DNA of 35,204 bases from a virus, in the IMG/VR virus record IMGVR_UViG_3300025000_000274, positions 1 to 35,204 of that record. One strand, written 5' to 3'. The position numbers were made by a program, and so were the translations under genes. The notes below the pieces were generated by a model. The model made no database searches, was not told the DNA's origin, and worked only from the letters and a program-made list of their open reading frames with translations. Shown here piece by piece: positions 5,610 through 31,040 of the stretch (position 1 is its first letter; the number at the start of each line of letters is the position of its first letter).

Positions 5610-5649
5610 TATTTAATAAATAAATAATTTAATCAATTATAGAACTCAG

Positions 5650-5754
5650 GCACTTCATTAATATGAGGTGCTTACTTTGTGTGATTGATTATGTTGCACA
5701 GTAAACAGACTAGGGTAGCTCCTGAAAGTCACAAGTCCTAGTGATTGTCTGTTT
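5650..5754 (+). ncRNA. structured RNA element, copy A
   Basis: Three helices stand in a row. The first is GCACTTCAT (5650-5658) with ATGAGGTGC (5663-5671). The second is TGTG (5678-5681) with CACA (5697-5700). The third is a long stem AAACAGAC (5703-5710) with GTCTGTTT (5747-5754). The third stem encloses TAGG, a small GG/CC hairpin and the core CACAAG(T)CCTAGTG (5730-5743). The same arrangement occurs at 8834-8939 (copy B) with different but still paired stem sequences. The element ends 50 bases before the start of the 5805 nuclease gene. It may be a leader, attenuator or ligand-responsive RNA; no known riboswitch family is recognised. Confidence 0.55.
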
Positions 5755-5804
5755 ATTACTTTTTAGAGGTAAGGACGAATAATACGAAGGATGGTGTTGT
5801 AATA

Positions 5805-7565
5805 ATGGGAAATACATATACAGATGAAGAACTAATAGAACTTTATAAGAAATTCGCTCTAAAATTAGGTAGGACTCCTTTACAAAAAGATATTAATGAG
5901 GAAAGAAAAACAGACAAAACATTACCTTCTTCTCCTGTTTTAAGTAGAAGATTCGGTGGATTAACTAATTTAAATAATATCTGTGGATTAATAATGCATT
6001 ATAAATATTATACTGATGAAGAAATGATGAAATTGCTATATAATTTTTATTTAGTCAATGGATTCCCGACAAAGAAAATGATTAGCATGGATAATTCTAT
6101 GCCCCATGCAGAAGTGTATTGTAAAAGGTTTGGTAGTTTTAAGGATGCAATTATTAAGGCAAATATTCCAATTCCAAAACACAAAGAAGGAAGATTAAAT
6201 GATAATTTCTGCGAATTAACCAAAGAACAACTTTTGCACCAATTAGAAATTGTAATTAAAGAGAATGGTATTATACAGACCAATAAATTCAAAGAATATG
6301 GACTTAAAAGTTTCAGAGTTTACAGAAATAGATTTGGTTCATATAAATCAGCATTGCAGTTAGCAGGTATAGAAATACAGGATGATATTATGAGGAAGTA
6401 TTTCTCTGAATTTAAAAATATAACAAATGATAAATTGTTGGAATATCTCAAAGATTTTTATAGTAAATTTGGAATACCTACTACAAGGATACTAAAATTC
6501 AATAAAGATATGCCTAGTGATTCTTTATATAGAGAAAGATTTGGTAGTTTTCAAAATGCACTTATAGAAGCAGGTATTTGTATCCCGGAGAGTAGAGAAT
6601 GGTTGTATGATAGAAAAAGAGTTAATGATGAGGAAATATTGGAGATCGTTTCAAAATATATACATAACAACTTCACTGAAAAAGATAGATTGCCAAGTTT
6701 AAAAGATTTATATGTTCTATGTAATGCTCCAAGTTATAGTGTTTTAAATAATAGATTTGATACAACTGAAAAATTTTATAATCAATTAGGTATTAATTAC
6801 TTAAGTCATAATATAAAAGCATTTGAATTAGATATGATTGAAAATTATAAAAATTTAAAAGAAAGTTTAGGTTACGTTCCAGATAGTAGAGATGTTGATA
6901 TGGCTAGTAAGAAAGGATTATGCCAAGGAATGAAAACGTATTCTGAGCATTTTGGAAGTCTAATTAAATTTCAAAAAATGTTGGGATATGAACCTACTGC
7001 AAATCTTGGATTAATGATCACCAAGGAAGATGCATTACTTGAATTAAAAGAATTAGGTATTTCTTTAGGAAGATTACCTACTCAAAAAGATACAAATGAA
7101 TGTGAATGGACACCATCTCAAGGCTACTATCATCATAATTTTGGATCATATGGAAAAGCATTAATTTTAGCAGGATTTGATAGCACTTGGTACAATCGCA
7201 AAGTAATGATTACTCCCAAAGGCAACTTAGCGTTTTCTTCCTATGAATATGATTTTACTACTATGCTTGAAGAAAATAATGTAGAATTTATTAAAGAAGA
7301 TTATTATAAAAATCATATAATTGGTTTTCCAGAAAGACTTCAATTTGATCATGTCCTTTTTATTGATGGTAATACATATTACATAGAGATTTTTGGAATT
7401 ATGGAGTATGAATGGTATAGAAATAAAACTATTAGAAAAATAAAATTGTGTGAAGATAATAATTTAAAACTAATTGACTTTTACAAAGAAGATTTCAAAA
7501 AGAAAAATAGAGATCAATTATTCGAAATGCTAATGGAAAGAATTAAAGAAATAGATAATAAATAA
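5805..7565 (+). CDS. repeat-type homing nuclease with C-terminal PD-(D/E)XK-like domain
   Basis: The product is 586 residues. I chose ATG 5805 because it fits the leader and begins GNTYTDEEL; a TTG at 5745 lies inside structured RNA. It carries about seven copies of the homing-endonuclease-associated repeat, each ending in a motif such as RRFGGLTNL, KRFGSFKDAI, NRFGSYKSAL, ERFGSFQNAL, EHFGSLIKF and HNFGSYGKAL, preceded by helix-forming spacers with (F)GRTPT/(L)GYVPD. These repeats probably read the DNA site. Residues ~505-580 hold the nuclease-like domain: ERLQFDHVLFIDGNTYYIEI and then YEWYRNKTIRKIKL, with Asp in FDHV and Glu in YIEI as likely metal ligands. The gene resembles I-Bth0305I/Vsr-like homing enzymes in general layout. 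A 3-base-longer spacing and the integrase RBS follow directly. Confidence 0.65.
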   Translation: MGNTYTDEELIELYKKFALKLGRTPLQKDINEERKTDKTLPSSPVLSRRFGGLTNLNNICGLIMHYKYYTDEEMMKLLYNFYLVNGFPTKKMISMDNSMPHAEVYCKRFGSFKDAIIKANIPIPKHKEGRLNDNFCELTKEQLLHQLEIVIKENGIIQTNKFKEYGLKSFRVYRNRFGSYKSALQLAGIEIQDDIMRKYFSEFKNITNDKLLEYLKDFYSKFGIPTTRILKFNKDMPSDSLYRERFGSFQNALIEAGICIPESREWLYDRKRVNDEEILEIVSKYIHNNFTEKDRLPSLKDLYVLCNAPSYSVLNNRFDTTEKFYNQLGINYLSHNIKAFELDMIENYKNLKESLGYVPDSRDVDMASKKGLCQGMKTYSEHFGSLIKFQKMLGYEPTANLGLMITKEDALLELKELGISLGRLPTQKDTNECEWTPSQGYYHHNFGSYGKALILAGFDSTWYNRKVMITPKGNLAFSSYEYDFTTMLEENNVEFIKEDYYKNHIIGFPERLQFDHVLFIDGNTYYIEIFGIMEYEWYRNKTIRKIKLCEDNNLKLIDFYKEDFKKKNRDQLFEMLMERIKEIDNK

Positions 7566-7578
7566 AGGAAGTGTATTG

Positions 7579-8631
7579 ATGCCAAGAGAAACATTTAAGA
7601 AACAAATAACCTCCCCAGAATTAACAGCACAATTTAATCCTGAGAATGTAAAATTAGTCCAAAGATTTCTAAAATATAAAAATACCTCTAAAAGCGATGG
7701 TACAGTGACTGGTTACACTAGTGATTTAAATATTTACTTTACCTGGAATTTATTGGAGAATGATAACAAATTATTCACAGATATGAAGAAGATTGAATTT
7801 GCAGATTTCTTTAGTTATGGAGTAGAAGAGTTACATTGGAGTGCTAATAGGTTTAGTAGAATACGTTCTGCTTTAAGTTCTTTATCTGAATTTATCGAAA
7901 GATTTTATGATGAAACGTATATTAATTATCGCAACATTGTATTAAAAGCGGTAGATTTAATGCCAAAATCCCCTGTTAGAGAAAAGACAATATTATCTGA
8001 GGAGCAAGTTGATAGTTTGCTTAATCATCTTAAAAATACACTTAATAGACCAAACGAAGCATGTTTACTAGCATTAGCAATAAGTTCAGGGGCACGGGTT
8101 GCAGAATTGCTCAGATTTAAGACTTCTATAATTGATGAGAATAATATTGCATGGGATTTATTTTTAGAAACATTAAAACCAATCAAGACAAAAGGTTTTA
8201 CAAAACAGGGAAAAATGTTAACGAAATATATAGTAAAAGATTTATTTTTGCCATATTATAAAGATTGGTTAATTGAAAGAGAAAAAATAATGATAAAATA
8301 TAATCAAGAACATGATTCTATTTTTATTACTAGAGATGGTAAACCAGCAACGTTACATACTATTAGAGGTTGGATTGAAAAATGGGAAGAGTTCTTAGGT
8401 GTTCCGACATATTTCCACAATTTTCGACATTATACAGTAACTTATTTAACAAAAATAGGTTTAGAGTCCGATTTTATTATTGAAATTATGGGATGGAGTT
8501 CAAGTGAAATGTATCGTATTTATAATGATTTAACAGCAAAAGATAGAGAATGGAAGGGTTTAGATAAACTTAAAATACATCTAAATGATAAAGAGGTTAT
8601 TGAAGACAATAAAATAGAAGACTTTAAATAA
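7579..8631 (+). CDS. tyrosine recombinase / integrase-like
   Basis: The product is 350 residues starting at ATG 7579 with AAAGGAAGTG upstream. The N-terminal ~120 residues form a core-binding SAM-like domain (DLNIYFTWNLLE... SANRFSRIRSALSSL). The catalytic domain shows Arg173 (SSGARVAELL), a Lys-containing beta-hairpin around 205-215, HNFRH (His280/Arg283) and MGWSSSEMYRIYNDL with the nucleophile probably Tyr315; Trp306 replaces the usual His/Trp position. It belongs to the lambda-integrase/XerC superfamily. The length and N-terminus fit a phage or XerC-like recombinase. It lies in the middle of accessory genes rather than next to an obvious attP, so resolution of multimers or integration are both possible. 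Confidence 0.75.
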   Translation: MPRETFKKQITSPELTAQFNPENVKLVQRFLKYKNTSKSDGTVTGYTSDLNIYFTWNLLENDNKLFTDMKKIEFADFFSYGVEELHWSANRFSRIRSALSSLSEFIERFYDETYINYRNIVLKAVDLMPKSPVREKTILSEEQVDSLLNHLKNTLNRPNEACLLALAISSGARVAELLRFKTSIIDENNIAWDLFLETLKPIKTKGFTKQGKMLTKYIVKDLFLPYYKDWLIEREKIMIKYNQEHDSIFITRDGKPATLHTIRGWIEKWEEFLGVPTYFHNFRHYTVTYLTKIGLESDFIIEIMGWSSSEMYRIYNDLTAKDREWKGLDKLKIHLNDKEVIEDNKIEDFK

Positions 8632-8641
8632 ATAACAATCC

Positions 8642-8674
8642 AAGGGATTAAAATTACAAATTAATCCCTTCCCC
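8642..8674 (+). terminator. terminator after the recombinase
   Basis: AAGGGATTAA (8642-8651) pairs perfectly with TTAATCCCTT (8661-8670), followed by a pyrimidine-rich tail. The remaining bases to 8833 hold no gene. A weak hairpin joins about 8724-8734 to 8745-8763; the rest is AT-rich and unassigned, and an attP here cannot be shown from this window. Confidence 0.75.
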
Positions 8675-8833
8675 ATATCTCTCATTCTAACCCATCCAAT
8701 CCATCCACCCCAAATAAAATAAAAGGACATTTTCATAGGATATTTGATACTCTGAAAGTGGCCTGTAGCAAGGATTTTATGATTTGTAATATTCCATAAA
8801 TATAATAATTTAATAAAAATTTAAGATAGATTA

Positions 8834-8939
8834 AACACCTTGAGATAATTAAGGTGTTTTTAATGTGTCTTAAATATGACACAAAACTAGCAGGATAGAC
8901 TGATCATCGACAAGACACAAGCCTTAGTGTTTTCCTGCT
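8834..8939 (+). ncRNA. structured RNA element, copy B
   Basis: Copy B has the same plan as copy A at 5650: AACACCTT (8834-8841) with AAGGTGTT (8851-8858); TGTGTC (8864-8869) with GACACA (8878-8883); and AGCAGGA (8889-8895) with TCCTGCT (8933-8939), the last enclosing TAG and the core CACAAGCCTTAGTG (8916-8929). Total length is 106 bases against 105 in copy A. The paired stems differ in sequence from copy A but stay complementary, which is compensatory change. It precedes the GIY-YIG gene by about 55 bases. The following leader also resembles that of copy A (AATAATAC and a purine-rich RBS). Confidence 0.55.
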
Positions 8940-8995
8940 TCTCTTTTATTAATTAAGGCAAACAAATAATACAATATGAAAGGCGGTATTAAACA

Positions 8996-10069
8996 ATGAT
9001 GGTAGAAGAAATTGAAGAAGTAGAAATTTTAGATCCCTATGGTTTTATTTACATTACAACAAATATGGTAAATGGCAAGAAATATATAGGACAGTGTAGA
9101 TTTAATCGTATTAATAATTGGGAGAATTATTTAGGAAGTGGAGTTTATTTTAAAAAAGCAGTTAAAAAGTATGGGAAAGAAAATTTTTATAAAAGTATTG
9201 TAGCGATTGCTTATACAAAAGAAGAGTTAGATAAATTGGAAATTGAGTTTATTATAAATCATAATGCCGTAGAAAGCGATGACTATTATAATCTTGTTGG
9301 TGGAGGAAATACAACTATTGGATTCCATTGGTCTGAGGAAGGCAGAAAAAAATTAAGAGTAAAGAAAACAGAAGAAACAAAAAGAAGAATGAGTGAATCA
9401 AAAAAGATAGGATATAAAAATGGTAATTTACCAAAAATAAGAAAGGTTATATGTATAACAACGGAAGAGATTTTCGATTCTATAACTTATGGGGCAGAGA
9501 AATACAATATTGAAACATCTGGAATAATAAGATGTTGCAAAAACGAACGAAAATCGGCAGGTAGCCACCCCATAACAAAGGAAAAATTAAAATGGGTATA
9601 TTATGACGAATATAATTCAAAAAGCTACACTTCTTCCACAATTAACTTTTGTAAAATCATATGTTTGACAACTGGAGAAATTTTTAATTCTATTAAAGAA
9701 GCAGAAAAAACATTCAATATATTTAAAGGTGGAATTTTAAAATGTTGTAAAAATAAAATACATTCAGCAGGAATACATCCAGATACAAAAGAAAAATTAG
9801 TATGGATGTATCATAATGAGTATATTTTAAAGACTAAGGATGAAATTAATAATATAATTATAAATAAAAATATAGATAATAGATACAAACAAGTAATATG
9901 TTTAAACACAAAGGAAGTTTTTAATAGTGCATTAGAAGCATCAAAAAAATATAATATTGATAATTCAGCAATAATTAAATGTTGTAAAGGAAAATTAAAA
10001 TCGGCAGGTAAAAACACAATTAATAATAATAAAATGGTTTGGATGTACTATGAAGATTACATAAAATAA
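8996..10069 (+). CDS. GIY-YIG homing endonuclease with NUMOD3 and three NUMOD1 repeats
   Basis: The product is 357 residues starting at ATG-ATG after AAAGGCGGT. Residues ~14-100 are a GIY-YIG nuclease: GFIYITTNMVNGKKYIGQ, then YLGSGVYFKKAVKKYGKENF and LEIEFI. A NUMOD3-type DNA-binding motif follows at ~118-140 (EEGRKKLRVKK...ETKRRMSESKK). Three NUMOD1 repeats follow: around 152-205 (VICITTEEIFDS ... ASGIIRCCKN-like), 215-275 (IICLTTGEIFNSI) and 298-352 (VICLNTKEVFNSA), each ending KLxWxYxxEY-like. This is the architecture of I-TevI/seg-type phage homing endonucleases. It is free-standing, not inside a recognisable intron. Copy B of the structured RNA lies directly upstream. Confidence 0.85.
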   Translation: MMVEEIEEVEILDPYGFIYITTNMVNGKKYIGQCRFNRINNWENYLGSGVYFKKAVKKYGKENFYKSIVAIAYTKEELDKLEIEFIINHNAVESDDYYNLVGGGNTTIGFHWSEEGRKKLRVKKTEETKRRMSESKKIGYKNGNLPKIRKVICITTEEIFDSITYGAEKYNIETSGIIRCCKNERKSAGSHPITKEKLKWVYYDEYNSKSYTSSTINFCKIICLTTGEIFNSIKEAEKTFNIFKGGILKCCKNKIHSAGIHPDTKEKLVWMYHNEYILKTKDEINNIIINKNIDNRYKQVICLNTKEVFNSALEASKKYNIDNSAIIKCCKGKLKSAGKNTINNNKMVWMYYEDYIK

Positions 10070-11828: not shown

Positions 11829-11885
11829 TTGCCAAGGTTTTGGATGTAACCCTCTTAATAAAGATTACATCCAAAACCTTGGCAA
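11829..11885. repeat. 21-bp perfect inverted repeat
   Basis: Left arm 11829-11849 (TTGCCAAGGTTTTGGATGTAA) is the exact reverse complement of 11865-11885, with a 15-base loop. It lies 11 bases after the helicase-associated gene. A transcript terminator is the simplest reading, but there is no T-tract after it on the plus strand; the minus strand has a T-rich continuation. Confidence 0.7.
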
Positions 11886-17890: not shown

Positions 17891-17967
17891 CTTTTTATAA
17901 TGTTTTGGTTTGGAGTGTGGGGCTTGGTAGGGGTAAGAATATAAAAATTGAAGGAGTGTGTTTATTA

Positions 17968-19575
17968 ATGGGAAATCAACACAAGGAATGGACAAAGGAA
18001 GAAATAATTAAAGCAATACAGGACTTTTATAGTAAAAATGGAAAGACGCCAAGAAGCAATGAATTTTTAGGTAAAAATGGCTTACCTTCATATGCCCATA
18101 CACTAAAAATACTAAATTACAGGTTTATAGAAGATGTATTTAGTCTATGTAATTTAGAGCGTACTGAAGCAGACGTAGCAAACAAAATAGATAAACAATG
18201 GGGATTAAATAAACTTATTGAACACTTCAACACATATAATAAAATACCAACTAGAGAAGAATTTAAAAAATACAATCTTACTCCTGCTCATGGATGGTAT
18301 GGTAAAAATTTTGGCAGTTATGAAAATGCTTGTTTTGAAGCAGGACTTGTGGATAAACCACTTACTGAAAAAGAAAGAATTAGTATTGCTTTAGATGAGT
18401 TAGAAATATTAGCAGATAAATTAAACAGATGTCCTACTGTGTTTGAATATGAAAATATCAAGCATAAAGGATATCAGAGACGAGATTTAGAAAAACATAT
18501 AAATATGAAATATAATGATATTTGTAAAAAATATATACCAAAGTATCAAGTTAATTCTAACAAGGATATATCAAAGGAAACAATATTAAAAGATATGAGT
18601 GATATGTTGATTAATAATGGTGGAGCTATGACATATGATGATATGAAAGATAAAGGACTACCTTATTCTCAGTCTATTTTTGATTCTAAATGTAATATGC
18701 TGTTTAATGAAATTATTTTACATTTAGGATATACACCTATTGGTACTACAACTTCAGTAAGAGAAGAAGAAACAATGTTAAATGATTTTAATAATTTGTT
18801 TATAAAATTAAAACGAGTACCATATACAAGGGATTTAGACGGAATCGGAATTGCTAGTTCTTCTACATATCTTAGTCATTTCGGATCAGTAGAAAACATA
18901 TGCAAATTGTTGAATATTGATTATACTAAATATTATAAGGGTACAGGAGCAGGAAAAATATGTTTTGATAAAAATGGTGGAAAATGTAGGTCTTTTATGG
19001 AATGTGTAATAAGTAATTATTATATTGATAATGGTTTGATCTTTGACAAAGAAACATCTTATGATGAATTTTTTGTCAAAGACACTAGAAGATTTGATTG
19101 GAAATTATCTATTAATGGAAATAATTTTTATGTAGAATATTGTGGCATGTACTACCCAAATAAAATGAATAGCGATATGAATATTGCTTATGTTAAAAAG
19201 ATTAATAGTAAAATAAAAGACTTAAAAGATAGTGGAAATTATGATAAGTGTCTTTTTATTTTTCCTGATGATATAAAAACAAAAACATTAAAAGAGATAT
19301 TCGAACCATTTCTTGGAATTGAATTGTTGGACATTACAAATACATATAAAATAAATACTGTAGAGTATTTCACAAAAACGTCTGAAGAACTCTTAGATAT
19401 TATAATGAAATATAGTACAAATACCAATATATTACCAAGCACTTCAATAATTTCAAGTAAAGAGGGAGGTGCTTATAATGAAATTAGGAAAAGGTTTAAG
19501 ACATATAATAACTTTGCTCTGCATTTCGGGATGACAACAATGTGTCCACCTAACAGAAAATTGTTTCTAATGTAA
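17968..19575 (+). CDS. repeat-type homing nuclease with PD-(D/E)XK-like domain, third copy of this kind
   Basis: The product is 535 residues. I chose ATG 17968 because AAGGAGTG lies just upstream; an in-frame TTG at 17884 lies inside the structured leader. Homing-endonuclease-associated repeats are visible, with (K)NFGSYENACFEAGL and (S)HFGSVENICKLLNI-type motifs and a last one after the catalytic region (KRFKTYNNFALHFGM). The nuclease part reads RRFDWKLSINGNNFYVEYCG, with Asp and Glu as likely metal ligands, in the same order as in the genes at 1000 and 5805. Overall identity to those two looks low, which points to separate acquisitions. The next gene (tail chaperone-like) begins 34 bases downstream, so this gene sits at the junction between accessory and tail blocks. 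Confidence 0.6.
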   Translation: MGNQHKEWTKEEIIKAIQDFYSKNGKTPRSNEFLGKNGLPSYAHTLKILNYRFIEDVFSLCNLERTEADVANKIDKQWGLNKLIEHFNTYNKIPTREEFKKYNLTPAHGWYGKNFGSYENACFEAGLVDKPLTEKERISIALDELEILADKLNRCPTVFEYENIKHKGYQRRDLEKHINMKYNDICKKYIPKYQVNSNKDISKETILKDMSDMLINNGGAMTYDDMKDKGLPYSQSIFDSKCNMLFNEIILHLGYTPIGTTTSVREEETMLNDFNNLFIKLKRVPYTRDLDGIGIASSSTYLSHFGSVENICKLLNIDYTKYYKGTGAGKICFDKNGGKCRSFMECVISNYYIDNGLIFDKETSYDEFFVKDTRRFDWKLSINGNNFYVEYCGMYYPNKMNSDMNIAYVKKINSKIKDLKDSGNYDKCLFIFPDDIKTKTLKEIFEPFLGIELLDITNTYKINTVEYFTKTSEELLDIIMKYSTNTNILPSTSIISSKEGGAYNEIRKRFKTYNNFALHFGMTTMCPPNRKLFLM

Positions 19576-29612: not shown

Positions 29613-29754
29613 AAATAATATTCCGAATGTGTATACTTTTATTTATTTAATAATTTTAGTGGGACAGAGGGTTGCTCCTTTTCTAATTACTGCAAATAAT
29701 TAGATTACCACTATTTTTATATTACCAACTTTTTTGCAGAAAGGAGGTGAGAGG

Positions 29755-30888
29755 ATGTTAAGGTCTTATAAAGTAAGATTATTACCAAATCAAATTCAAG
29801 AACAATTATTATGGAAACATATTAATACATCTAGATTTGTTTGGAATTTTGGATTGTCTCACCAATTAGAAAGATTTAAAAATAAAGAAAAACATCTAAG
29901 TGGTTATGATTTGAGAAAGATGTTCACAAATCTTAAACAACAAGAAGAATATATATGGTTGAAAGAAATTTCTGCCCATACCATTTCTAATGTTTGTTTA
30001 GATTTAGATGTTGCTTATAAAAGATTTTTTAAAAAGATAAGTGGGAAGCCAAAATTTAAGAAAAAATATAAATGTAAAAACAGTTTTCCAATAAGGCAAG
30101 ATAGCTTTTATTTTAATAATAATTGTGCGACCATTGAAAAAATCGGAAAAGTAAAATACCAAACTAATTATGAATTACCACAAGGTATAAATCTGCAAGG
30201 TAAATTTAGTAATCCAAGAATTAAATTTAAAAATAATAAGTGGATTTTAAGTTTTGGTATGGAGTGTAATAAACAAACACAAATACTTACTGATAATAAA
30301 ATGGGGATAGATTTAGGAGTTAAAGATTTAGCAATTGTAAGTTGTGGAGATGAGTTTAAAGTTTTTAAAAATATTAATAAGACAAAGTATGTAAAGAAAA
30401 TCAAAAAACAATTAAAACATGCTCAAAGAATTGTTAGTAAAAAATATCATACTAATAAATCTTGGAGTAAGTCTAATAATATAATAAAAGCTGAAAAACG
30501 AGTTAAACAATTACATAATAAACTATCAAATATCAGAAAAAATTATATTCATCAAACTACAAAAGAACTTGTAAATAAACTTCCAAAAAGAATAATAATG
30601 GAAGACTTAAATGTGAGTGGTATGATGAAGAATAGGTATCTTTCAAAAGCAATTCAGGAACAATGTTTTTATGAATTCAAGAGACAAATACAATATAAAT
30701 GTGAAGAATATGGGATAGAATTTGTTCAAGCAAATAGATTTTATCCAAGTTCAAAAACATGTGCATGTTGTGGATTTATAAAGAAAGATTTAAAACTCAA
30801 AGATAGAGTTTTTGTATGTCCTGATTGTGGATTCGAGATTGATAGGGATAAAAATGCTAGTCTTAATCTTATGAATTATAAAGGTTAA
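29755..30888 (+). CDS. tnpB: TnpB RNA-guided nuclease (IS605/IS200 family), IStron-borne
   Basis: The product is 377 residues, starting at ATG 29755 directly after AAGGAGGTGA (29741-29750); an in-frame TTG at 29734 would add seven residues and has no RBS. The RuvC residues are all present: Asp186 (GIDLGVKDLAI), Glu283 (IIMEDLNV) and Asp363/365 (EIDRDKNASLN). A zinc finger lies at Cys336/Cys339 and Cys355/Cys358 (CACC...CPDC). The N-terminal ~180 residues include the REC/wedge part (SFPIRQDSFYF, GKPKFKKKYK). It is in the same orientation as the intron and the tape measure gene. The omega RNA would be transcribed from the 3' end of the gene and downstream sequence, so the guide would read the right flank at 31041 onwards. 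Confidence 0.92.
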   Translation: MLRSYKVRLLPNQIQEQLLWKHINTSRFVWNFGLSHQLERFKNKEKHLSGYDLRKMFTNLKQQEEYIWLKEISAHTISNVCLDLDVAYKRFFKKISGKPKFKKKYKCKNSFPIRQDSFYFNNNCATIEKIGKVKYQTNYELPQGINLQGKFSNPRIKFKNNKWILSFGMECNKQTQILTDNKMGIDLGVKDLAIVSCGDEFKVFKNINKTKYVKKIKKQLKHAQRIVSKKYHTNKSWSKSNNIIKAEKRVKQLHNKLSNIRKNYIHQTTKELVNKLPKRIIMEDLNVSGMMKNRYLSKAIQEQCFYEFKRQIQYKCEEYGIEFVQANRFYPSSKTCACCGFIKKDLKLKDRVFVCPDCGFEIDRDKNASLNLMNYKG

Positions 30889-31040
30889 TTGATTAAAATA
30901 TTGAGGATTAATTAACTTTTTAGGACTTTGGTGCATCCGAAATCAAGCCTTTTGAGTGCTACATCAAATGAGAGTAGTTTTAGCAATAGAACAAAATCAG
31001 GCACGATGAATAGGGAAATAAATAAAAATATACACATTTG
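30889..31040 (+). ncRNA. putative omega RNA region / IStron right end
   Basis: This 150-base stretch links the tnpB stop to the exon junction. In TnpB systems the omega RNA scaffold is the 3' end of the element and the guide is the adjacent flank, here starting GGTATGTTTTTAGC. The same bases form the 3' end of the group I intron, so the omega RNA and intron overlap and compete. It is a candidate by position; the fold was not computed. Confidence 0.5.

Follow-up and report, generated by a model that had tools for sequence, protein, structure and literature searches.

Among the structured RNAs collected in Rfam, the int-alpA RNA (RF02996) is named for its position between int and alpA genes. 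Rfam classes it as an sRNA with its function unexplained, and the printed consensus structure includes no pairing between a loop and a target. Other structured RNAs adjoin nuclease genes, as in the case of HEARO and the IS200/IS605 RNAs, which guide their nuclease. The Rfam model of the C4 antisense RNAs (RF01695) matches c4 of phage P1 as well as CI of phage P4. The loops of c4 occlude a ribosome-binding site, with specificity given by a' (PMC5320573), and the CI RNA pairs with seqA and seqC and acts through termination (PMC4825925). In phages T4 and Aeh1, hairpins are present at the ribosome-binding sites of homing endonuclease genes, including I-TevI, segB, and mobE (PMC2988022).

The window analyzed here, 35,204 nucleotides of virus record IMGVR_UViG_3300025000_000274, contains two RNAs, copies A and B, which resemble int-alpA in the architecture of stems P1, P2, and P3 and in the CUAG...CGAAAAGC core but differ from it in having nucleases as cargo. 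Neither lies between int and alpA; the gene preceding A is RuvC-like, that preceding B encodes an integrase, and each copy is followed by a homing nuclease gene. With the C4 RNAs, they share a closing stem around two hairpins and a second loop complementary both to a further site and to the ribosome site of the next gene on the same transcript, whereas in C4 P1 is longer, the core is different, pairing involves another region (b'), and one of the targets is located upstream. As in T4 and Aeh1, RNA structure is predicted to mask the site at which ribosomes bind the message of a phage homing nuclease; those elements, however, are single local hairpins that are bypassed by a late promoter, whereas the modules described here possess a conserved domain that is separate and that carries a private complementary word. 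Like the HEARO and IS200/IS605 guide RNAs, A and B adjoin nuclease genes, but they lack an Rfam match, and the module swaps between unrelated nucleases, which argues that it does not serve any one protein as a guide.

Homology of copies A and B

The original prediction described two structured RNAs of about 105 nt, each preceding a homing nuclease gene. Both copies are present with the predicted stems (Table 1), and Pfam matches confirm both downstream genes as homing nucleases. The fold of each full copy is stronger than that of dinucleotide shuffles (z of -3.9 for A and -4.0 for B; 0 of 200 shuffles), with hairpin 1 supplying much of the excess in fold energy in both. The word CACAAG-N-C-Y-TAGTG, found at 5730-5743 in A and 8916-8929 in B, is weak evidence by itself, since 0.7 matches to this 14-mer are expected in shuffles, and covariance models were therefore used to test homology. 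Model R2, for which 101 matches were taken from viral contigs other than the window, detects A with 48.3 bits (E = 2.5e-14) but misses B, the second hairpin of which has drifted; this miss is a selection artifact that arose because the training loci of model R2 were selected on the core TAGGGTAGCTCC, and it was settled with model R3. The latter, built without B, with relatives of the window's phage group and with A among its training sequences, detects B with 38.5 bits (E = 3.1e-9) and also detects its own training member A. Each copy is thus detected by a covariance model built without that copy, and A and B are genuine homologous RNAs.

Members of the class were retrieved with the core TAGGGTAGCTCCNGA; a first degenerate search pattern returned mainly chance matches within coding regions. 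Further homologues with covarying P1 and P3 stems occur in other viral contigs, as the original prediction implied. DNA searches of phage and plasmid collections returned only distant matches inside the GIY-YIG nuclease gene or chance words, and protein searches of IMG/VR identified two close relatives of the HNH_repeat gene and no close relatives of the GIY-YIG gene. A simple terminator-like hairpin (~930-963) preceding the gene at 1000 was considered as a third copy and rejected, having no model match. The RNA module is absent upstream of a second HNH_repeat homing nuclease gene in the window (17962-19575).

No known riboswitch had been recognized in the original prediction. This view holds insofar as A and B have no Rfam match at E values of up to 5, and the record has none to RF02996 at E values of up to 10; it has to be revised insofar as both are divergent members of the int-alpA structural class. 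Neither A nor B reaches the gathering threshold of RF02996, whereas relatives in the same alignment exceed the gathering score with 55.0, 49.3, and 39.4 bits, and both copies are therefore assigned to the class as divergent members by continuous homology and not by the Rfam test. The continuity consists of a P1/P2/P3 fold with a UAG...CGAnAAG core shared with RF02996 members; the training set of model R2 includes the Rfam-positive loci L116, L130, and L137, and B is connected via model R3. The class is large, with matches across many phyla among the matches listed in two viral-contig scans and one bacterial-genome scan. The C4 model RF01695 has no match in the window, model R2 does not match phage P1 or phage P4, and no covariance model connects int-alpA-type RNAs with C4.

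At permissive E values, no Rfam family was found around A or B, and the only one found elsewhere in the window was RAGATH-18. At 29752-31017, an IS605/IS607-type TnpB gene is followed by this RAGATH-18 RNA (RF03064, 66.1 bits); together they interrupt a long tape-measure gene, the C-terminal part of which seems to resume at 31038. RAGATH-18 RNAs are reported to be guide RNAs of IS607 TnpBs (PMC11061315). A large intergenic palindrome at 11837-11884 (ccaaggttttggatgtaa / ttacatccaaaaccttgg) is probably a terminator. A stretch of ~90 nt at 8722-8813, located 3' of the integrase gene, recurs with 91% identity in another context in L298 and L303 and is possibly an attachment site or another RNA.

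Table 1. Coordinates of the two modules, their flanks, and the genes behind them
Feature	Position	Strand	Remarks
Hairpin 1 of A, terminator-like, upstream flank	5648..5672	+	AGGCACTTC..GAGGTGCT then TTACTTT; kept in L289 though the RNA behind differs
H2 (TGTG/CACA hairpin) of A, upstream flank	5678..5700	+	In relatives, spacing variable
RNA module A, structured part	5702..5755	+	Match to model R2, P1/P3 covariation, fold
P1 of A	5702-5710/5747-5755		
P2 hairpin of A	5713-5723		
P3 of A	5727-5732/5741-5746		
Loop L3 of A	5733-5740	+	AAGTCCTA
Site R1 of A	5770..5776	+	TAAGGAC; AGGAC predicted to pair with GTCCT of L3
P4 hairpin of A	5781..5798	+	AATAC/GTGTT; from fold and coordinates
Site R2 and Shine-Dalgarno of A, in P4 loop	5786-5794	+	GAAGGATGG; AGGA predicted to pair with TCCT of L3
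HNH_repeat homing endonuclease gene, putatively controlled by A	5805..7565	+	PF18780, 9e-53
Hairpin 1 of B, terminator-like, upstream flank	8834..8858	+	Kept in L289
H2 (TGTG/CACA hairpin) of B, upstream flank	8864..8883	+	
RNA module B, structured part	8887..8941	+	Match to model R3
P1 of B	8889-8895/8933-8939		
P2 of B, weak	~8898-8908		
P3 of B	8913-8918/8927-8932		
Loop L3 of B	8919-8926	+	AAGCCTTA
Site R1 of B	8953..8959	+	TTAAGGC; TAAGGC predicted to pair with GCCTTA of L3, 6 bp
P4 hairpin of B	8973..8990	+	AATAT/GTATT; predicted from homologous L015 hairpin
Site R2 and Shine-Dalgarno of B	8979-8986	+	AAAGGCGG; AAGGC predicted to pair with GCCTT of L3
GIY-YIG (SegE-like) homing endonuclease gene, putatively controlled by B	8996..10069	+	PF19835, 1.9e-10; PF22083, 1.9e-7; SegE GIY-YIG and I-HmuI NUMOD-like domains

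Anatomy of the module and complementarity of its loop

From 5' to 3', the RNA is composed of P1, UA, a short hairpin (P2), GA-n-AAG, a second hairpin (P3) carrying loop L3, and the 3' strand of P1. It is followed by a somewhat T-rich stretch, a first repeat (site R1), a spacer, hairpin P4, and the start codon; a second repeat (site R2) lies in the loop of P4, and the Shine-Dalgarno sequence is located in its 3' arm or loop. The module and its covarying stems, like the match of L3 to R1 and R2, hairpin P4, and the recombining boundaries described below, are read from sequence comparison. The original prediction that the closing stem stays paired despite different bases extends to the relatives: across 96 distinct sequences, P1 and P3 covary strongly, with 88% of cells paired compared to 35 to 50% when slid and with 335 double changes compared to 116. 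P2 is invariant in this set because the loci were chosen by P2; in other members it is formed by GTG/CAC, GCCC/GGGC, or GAA/TTC. Hexamers resembling a -10 box are located 1 to 11 nt upstream of P1 in 93 of 196 loci (summed counts, if each is counted only once), at a density near P1 about 8 times that further upstream, so that many modules seem to own a promoter; copies A and B have no obvious promoter of their own. T is enriched just after P1 (0.31 to 0.46 over the first nine positions versus ~0.2 later), and runs with at least 5 T in 7 positions reach 23% there versus 7% further on.

The complementarity of the P3 loop to the leader was overlooked in the original prediction. For 78 distinct loops among the matches listed, the mean longest Watson-Crick run in the leader is 5.87 nt, compared to 3.69 +/- 0.10 nt in a control in which loops were permuted between loci, and 53% of these loops, compared to 3.6% of permuted ones, match the leader at two distinct sites that are each 5 nt or longer. 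Both sites likewise reach this length for 60% versus 6.6% in another scan, which used a different core (53 loops among the matches listed), and for 52% versus 4.0% in a bacterial-genome set (81 loops among the matches listed), giving a total of about 200 loop words among the matches listed, with some overlap between the sets. Among 13 loops that share no 4-mer, a best site of at least 5 nt and a second of at least 4 nt were present in 85% versus 15%. Complementarity in an equally long stretch upstream of P1 is at the chance level (3.61 versus 5.90 downstream). The two target sites are separated by a median spacer of 8 nt, and site R2 begins a median of 13 nt before the start codon.

The P4 stem around R2 covaries as well, with a stem score of 4.32 versus 2.61 +/- 0.12 and with a score of at least 4 in 73% versus 20% when spacers were permuted. 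In the window, the match between L3 and R2 in A extends over only 4 bp, and the leader of B folded alone does not form the predicted P4. The loop words differ between copies within one record, both between A and B and in L026, L287, L289, and L012. One further member, at 2950-3060 of L289, has a much longer P2, the loop word ACTCAC, and GTGAGT twice downstream, and precedes a gene of 408 amino acids without a clear Pfam match. The complementarity of L3 to both a spacer repeat and a Shine-Dalgarno repeat seems to be new. In the literature searched, int-alpA was mentioned only in a list, and the original description of the family may already note loop pairing.

Complementarity between the P3 loop and a ribosome site, a hallmark of C4, is found in the class, in A and B, and in phages P1 and P4. 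The P3 loop of phage P1 c4 has a match of 8 nt downstream and 7 nt upstream, and that of phage P4 CI has a match of 9 nt downstream and 8 nt upstream; the downstream matches of both sit near the next start codon. In the class described here, the second copy of the target (R1) is not upstream of the RNA but downstream. Because both targets are downstream, unlike the situation in c4 and CI, the module is proposed to work like these RNAs but is not filed as a member of C4.

Boundaries, mobility, and cargo genes

The conserved unit begins at P1 (5702 in A and 8887 in B), includes the leader, and ends at the start codon (5805 and 8996). It is thus displaced relative to the 105-nt unit of the original prediction: hairpin 1 and the TGTG/CACA hairpin (H2) are not part of the RNA, because homology to relatives breaks 3' of both. 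L289 matches the upstream flank of the window up to a few bases before P1 at both loci and differs beyond, and L003, which is unlike the window upstream of A, becomes identical to it where P1 begins. H2 occurs with variable spacing in L003, L004, L026, L177, and L287, and the module boundary lies just 3' of it.

Comparisons among three relatives separate the module from the gene that it precedes. The module is shared between L286 and L289 (94%) and the gene is not (40%), the module of L286 preceding an HNH_repeat nuclease and its equivalent in L289 preceding a GIY-YIG nuclease. In contrast, L286 and L287 share the flank (94%) and the nuclease (91%) but not the module (39%). Homology breaks at P1 and at the ATG in these comparisons, which indicates that the module recombines as a unit, from P1 to ATG, between different nuclease genes. 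A guide RNA, like feedback from the nuclease encoded behind the module, is disfavored by this independence of the protein, and the separation of the module from a given nuclease gene within the phage group of the window suggests a control cassette rather than a part of the homing element.

Pfam matches among 120 nonredundant downstream genes were led by HNH_3 (11), HNH (9), DUF1376 (9), HNH_5 (7), and NUMOD4 (5), followed by Rha, endonuclease VII, AP2, and GIY-YIG (4 each); these counts are not additive, as one protein can match several families. In a control set of 100 genes taken from these loci, 2 matched HNH_3, and the other leading cargo families were absent from the 25 most frequent. The cargo is therefore enriched for HNH and GIY-YIG nucleases, yet it is not limited to nucleases and includes DUF1376 primosomal proteins, Rha antirepressor-like proteins, and methylases. 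Cargo in named phages includes an HNH nuclease in thermophilic phage D6E, a Seg-like nuclease in a Rhizobium phage, a NUMOD4 protein in a bat-feces siphovirus in which the flanking genes are on the other strand, and an Rha protein in an Acinetobacter phage. In the member at 1508-1606 of L435, the loop reads GCCTTA and both repeats are present, and the gene behind it, read by eye, resembles a phage primase and not a nuclease. The original suggestion that the RNA travels with or controls homing genes thus stands in part: the RNA travels with nucleases and probably controls them, but its cargo extends beyond homing genes, which are enriched without being the sole class.

Proposed mode of action and alternatives

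Each copy is probably a self-contained control module of the 5' leader that represses the following gene by an antisense mechanism like that of c4 and CI. P1 would hold the two hairpins, and P3 would present L3 as a loop of 6 to 9 nt that may pair with R1 or with R2 at the Shine-Dalgarno sequence inside P4. Pairing with R2 would block translation initiation, and R1 would serve as a competing partner or, during transcription, as the first partner. The repressor would be made from the same transcript as its target and could reach in trans every message that carries its word, so that nuclease would be made briefly upon entry and then be switched off as the RNA accumulates. Repression itself, its action in cis or in trans, and its timing are what we infer. 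That L3 matches the ribosome site and that P4 covaries speak for control at the level of translation, and repression is the simplest reading. The diversity of the words, the swapping of modules, and the presence of different words in one genome suggest specific action in trans, as with the c4 RNAs of phages P1 and P7, though compensatory drift in cis could yield the same pattern.

Counting against an antisense repressor of this kind are the short match between L3 and R2 in A, the downstream location of both targets, which sets the class apart from c4 and CI, and the failure of covariance models to connect the families. The core (UAG..CGAAAAG and the UAGCU loop) also shows more conservation than a bare scaffold would require, which speaks against an antisense repressor and would suit binding of a ligand or protein. 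The core might accordingly sense a small molecule or a host or phage protein, and L3 would then alternate, in cis alone, between R1 (the on state) and R2 (the off state); a strongly conserved core beside a variable expression platform and a single loop with two mutually exclusive partners do resemble a switch. We nevertheless regard such a riboswitch or protein-responsive switch as unlikely, given that the cargo genes (nucleases, DUF1376, Rha, and methylases) are unrelated, with no common pathway hinting at a metabolite, and that the loop words diversify widely and differ within a genome, neither of which a purely cis-acting switch needs. The T enrichment just after P1 raises the prospect of transcription attenuation, in which P1 to P3 and a U-rich stretch would end transcription, read-through would give the message, and pairing of L3 with R1 would modulate the outcome, a precedent being termination by phage P4 CI RNA (PMC4825925). 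Since most members have no clear U run and R2 lies at the Shine-Dalgarno sequence within its own covarying hairpin, which points to translation, attenuation appears improbable. That homology breaks exactly at P1 and at the start codon would also fit an element acting in DNA, such as a recombination hot spot or the boundary of a homing target, with the RNA fold as a by-product; compensatory changes in P1, P3, and P4 and the three-way match of L3, R1, and R2 are signatures of RNA, however, and the modules have no common fixed DNA word at the break, making this reading very hard to credit.

For the antisense repressor, the private word common to L3, R1, and the ribosome site provides a directly testable mechanism for the int-alpA RNA, which is listed without a function, and makes it comparable with the classical immunity RNAs c4 of phage P1 and CI of phage P4. 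The roughly 200 loop words are a natural set for studies of RNA switches, and the arrangement suggests how many phages restrain homing nucleases and other accessory genes. More tentatively, the int-alpA-type RNAs could together form a very large and modular class of antisense regulators in phages. Each module would carry a loop with a private word and two targets matching it, would move between genes as a unit, and would act in trans, phages that share a word silencing the cargo genes of one another. If this is true, homing nucleases and other accessory genes would have immunity groups.
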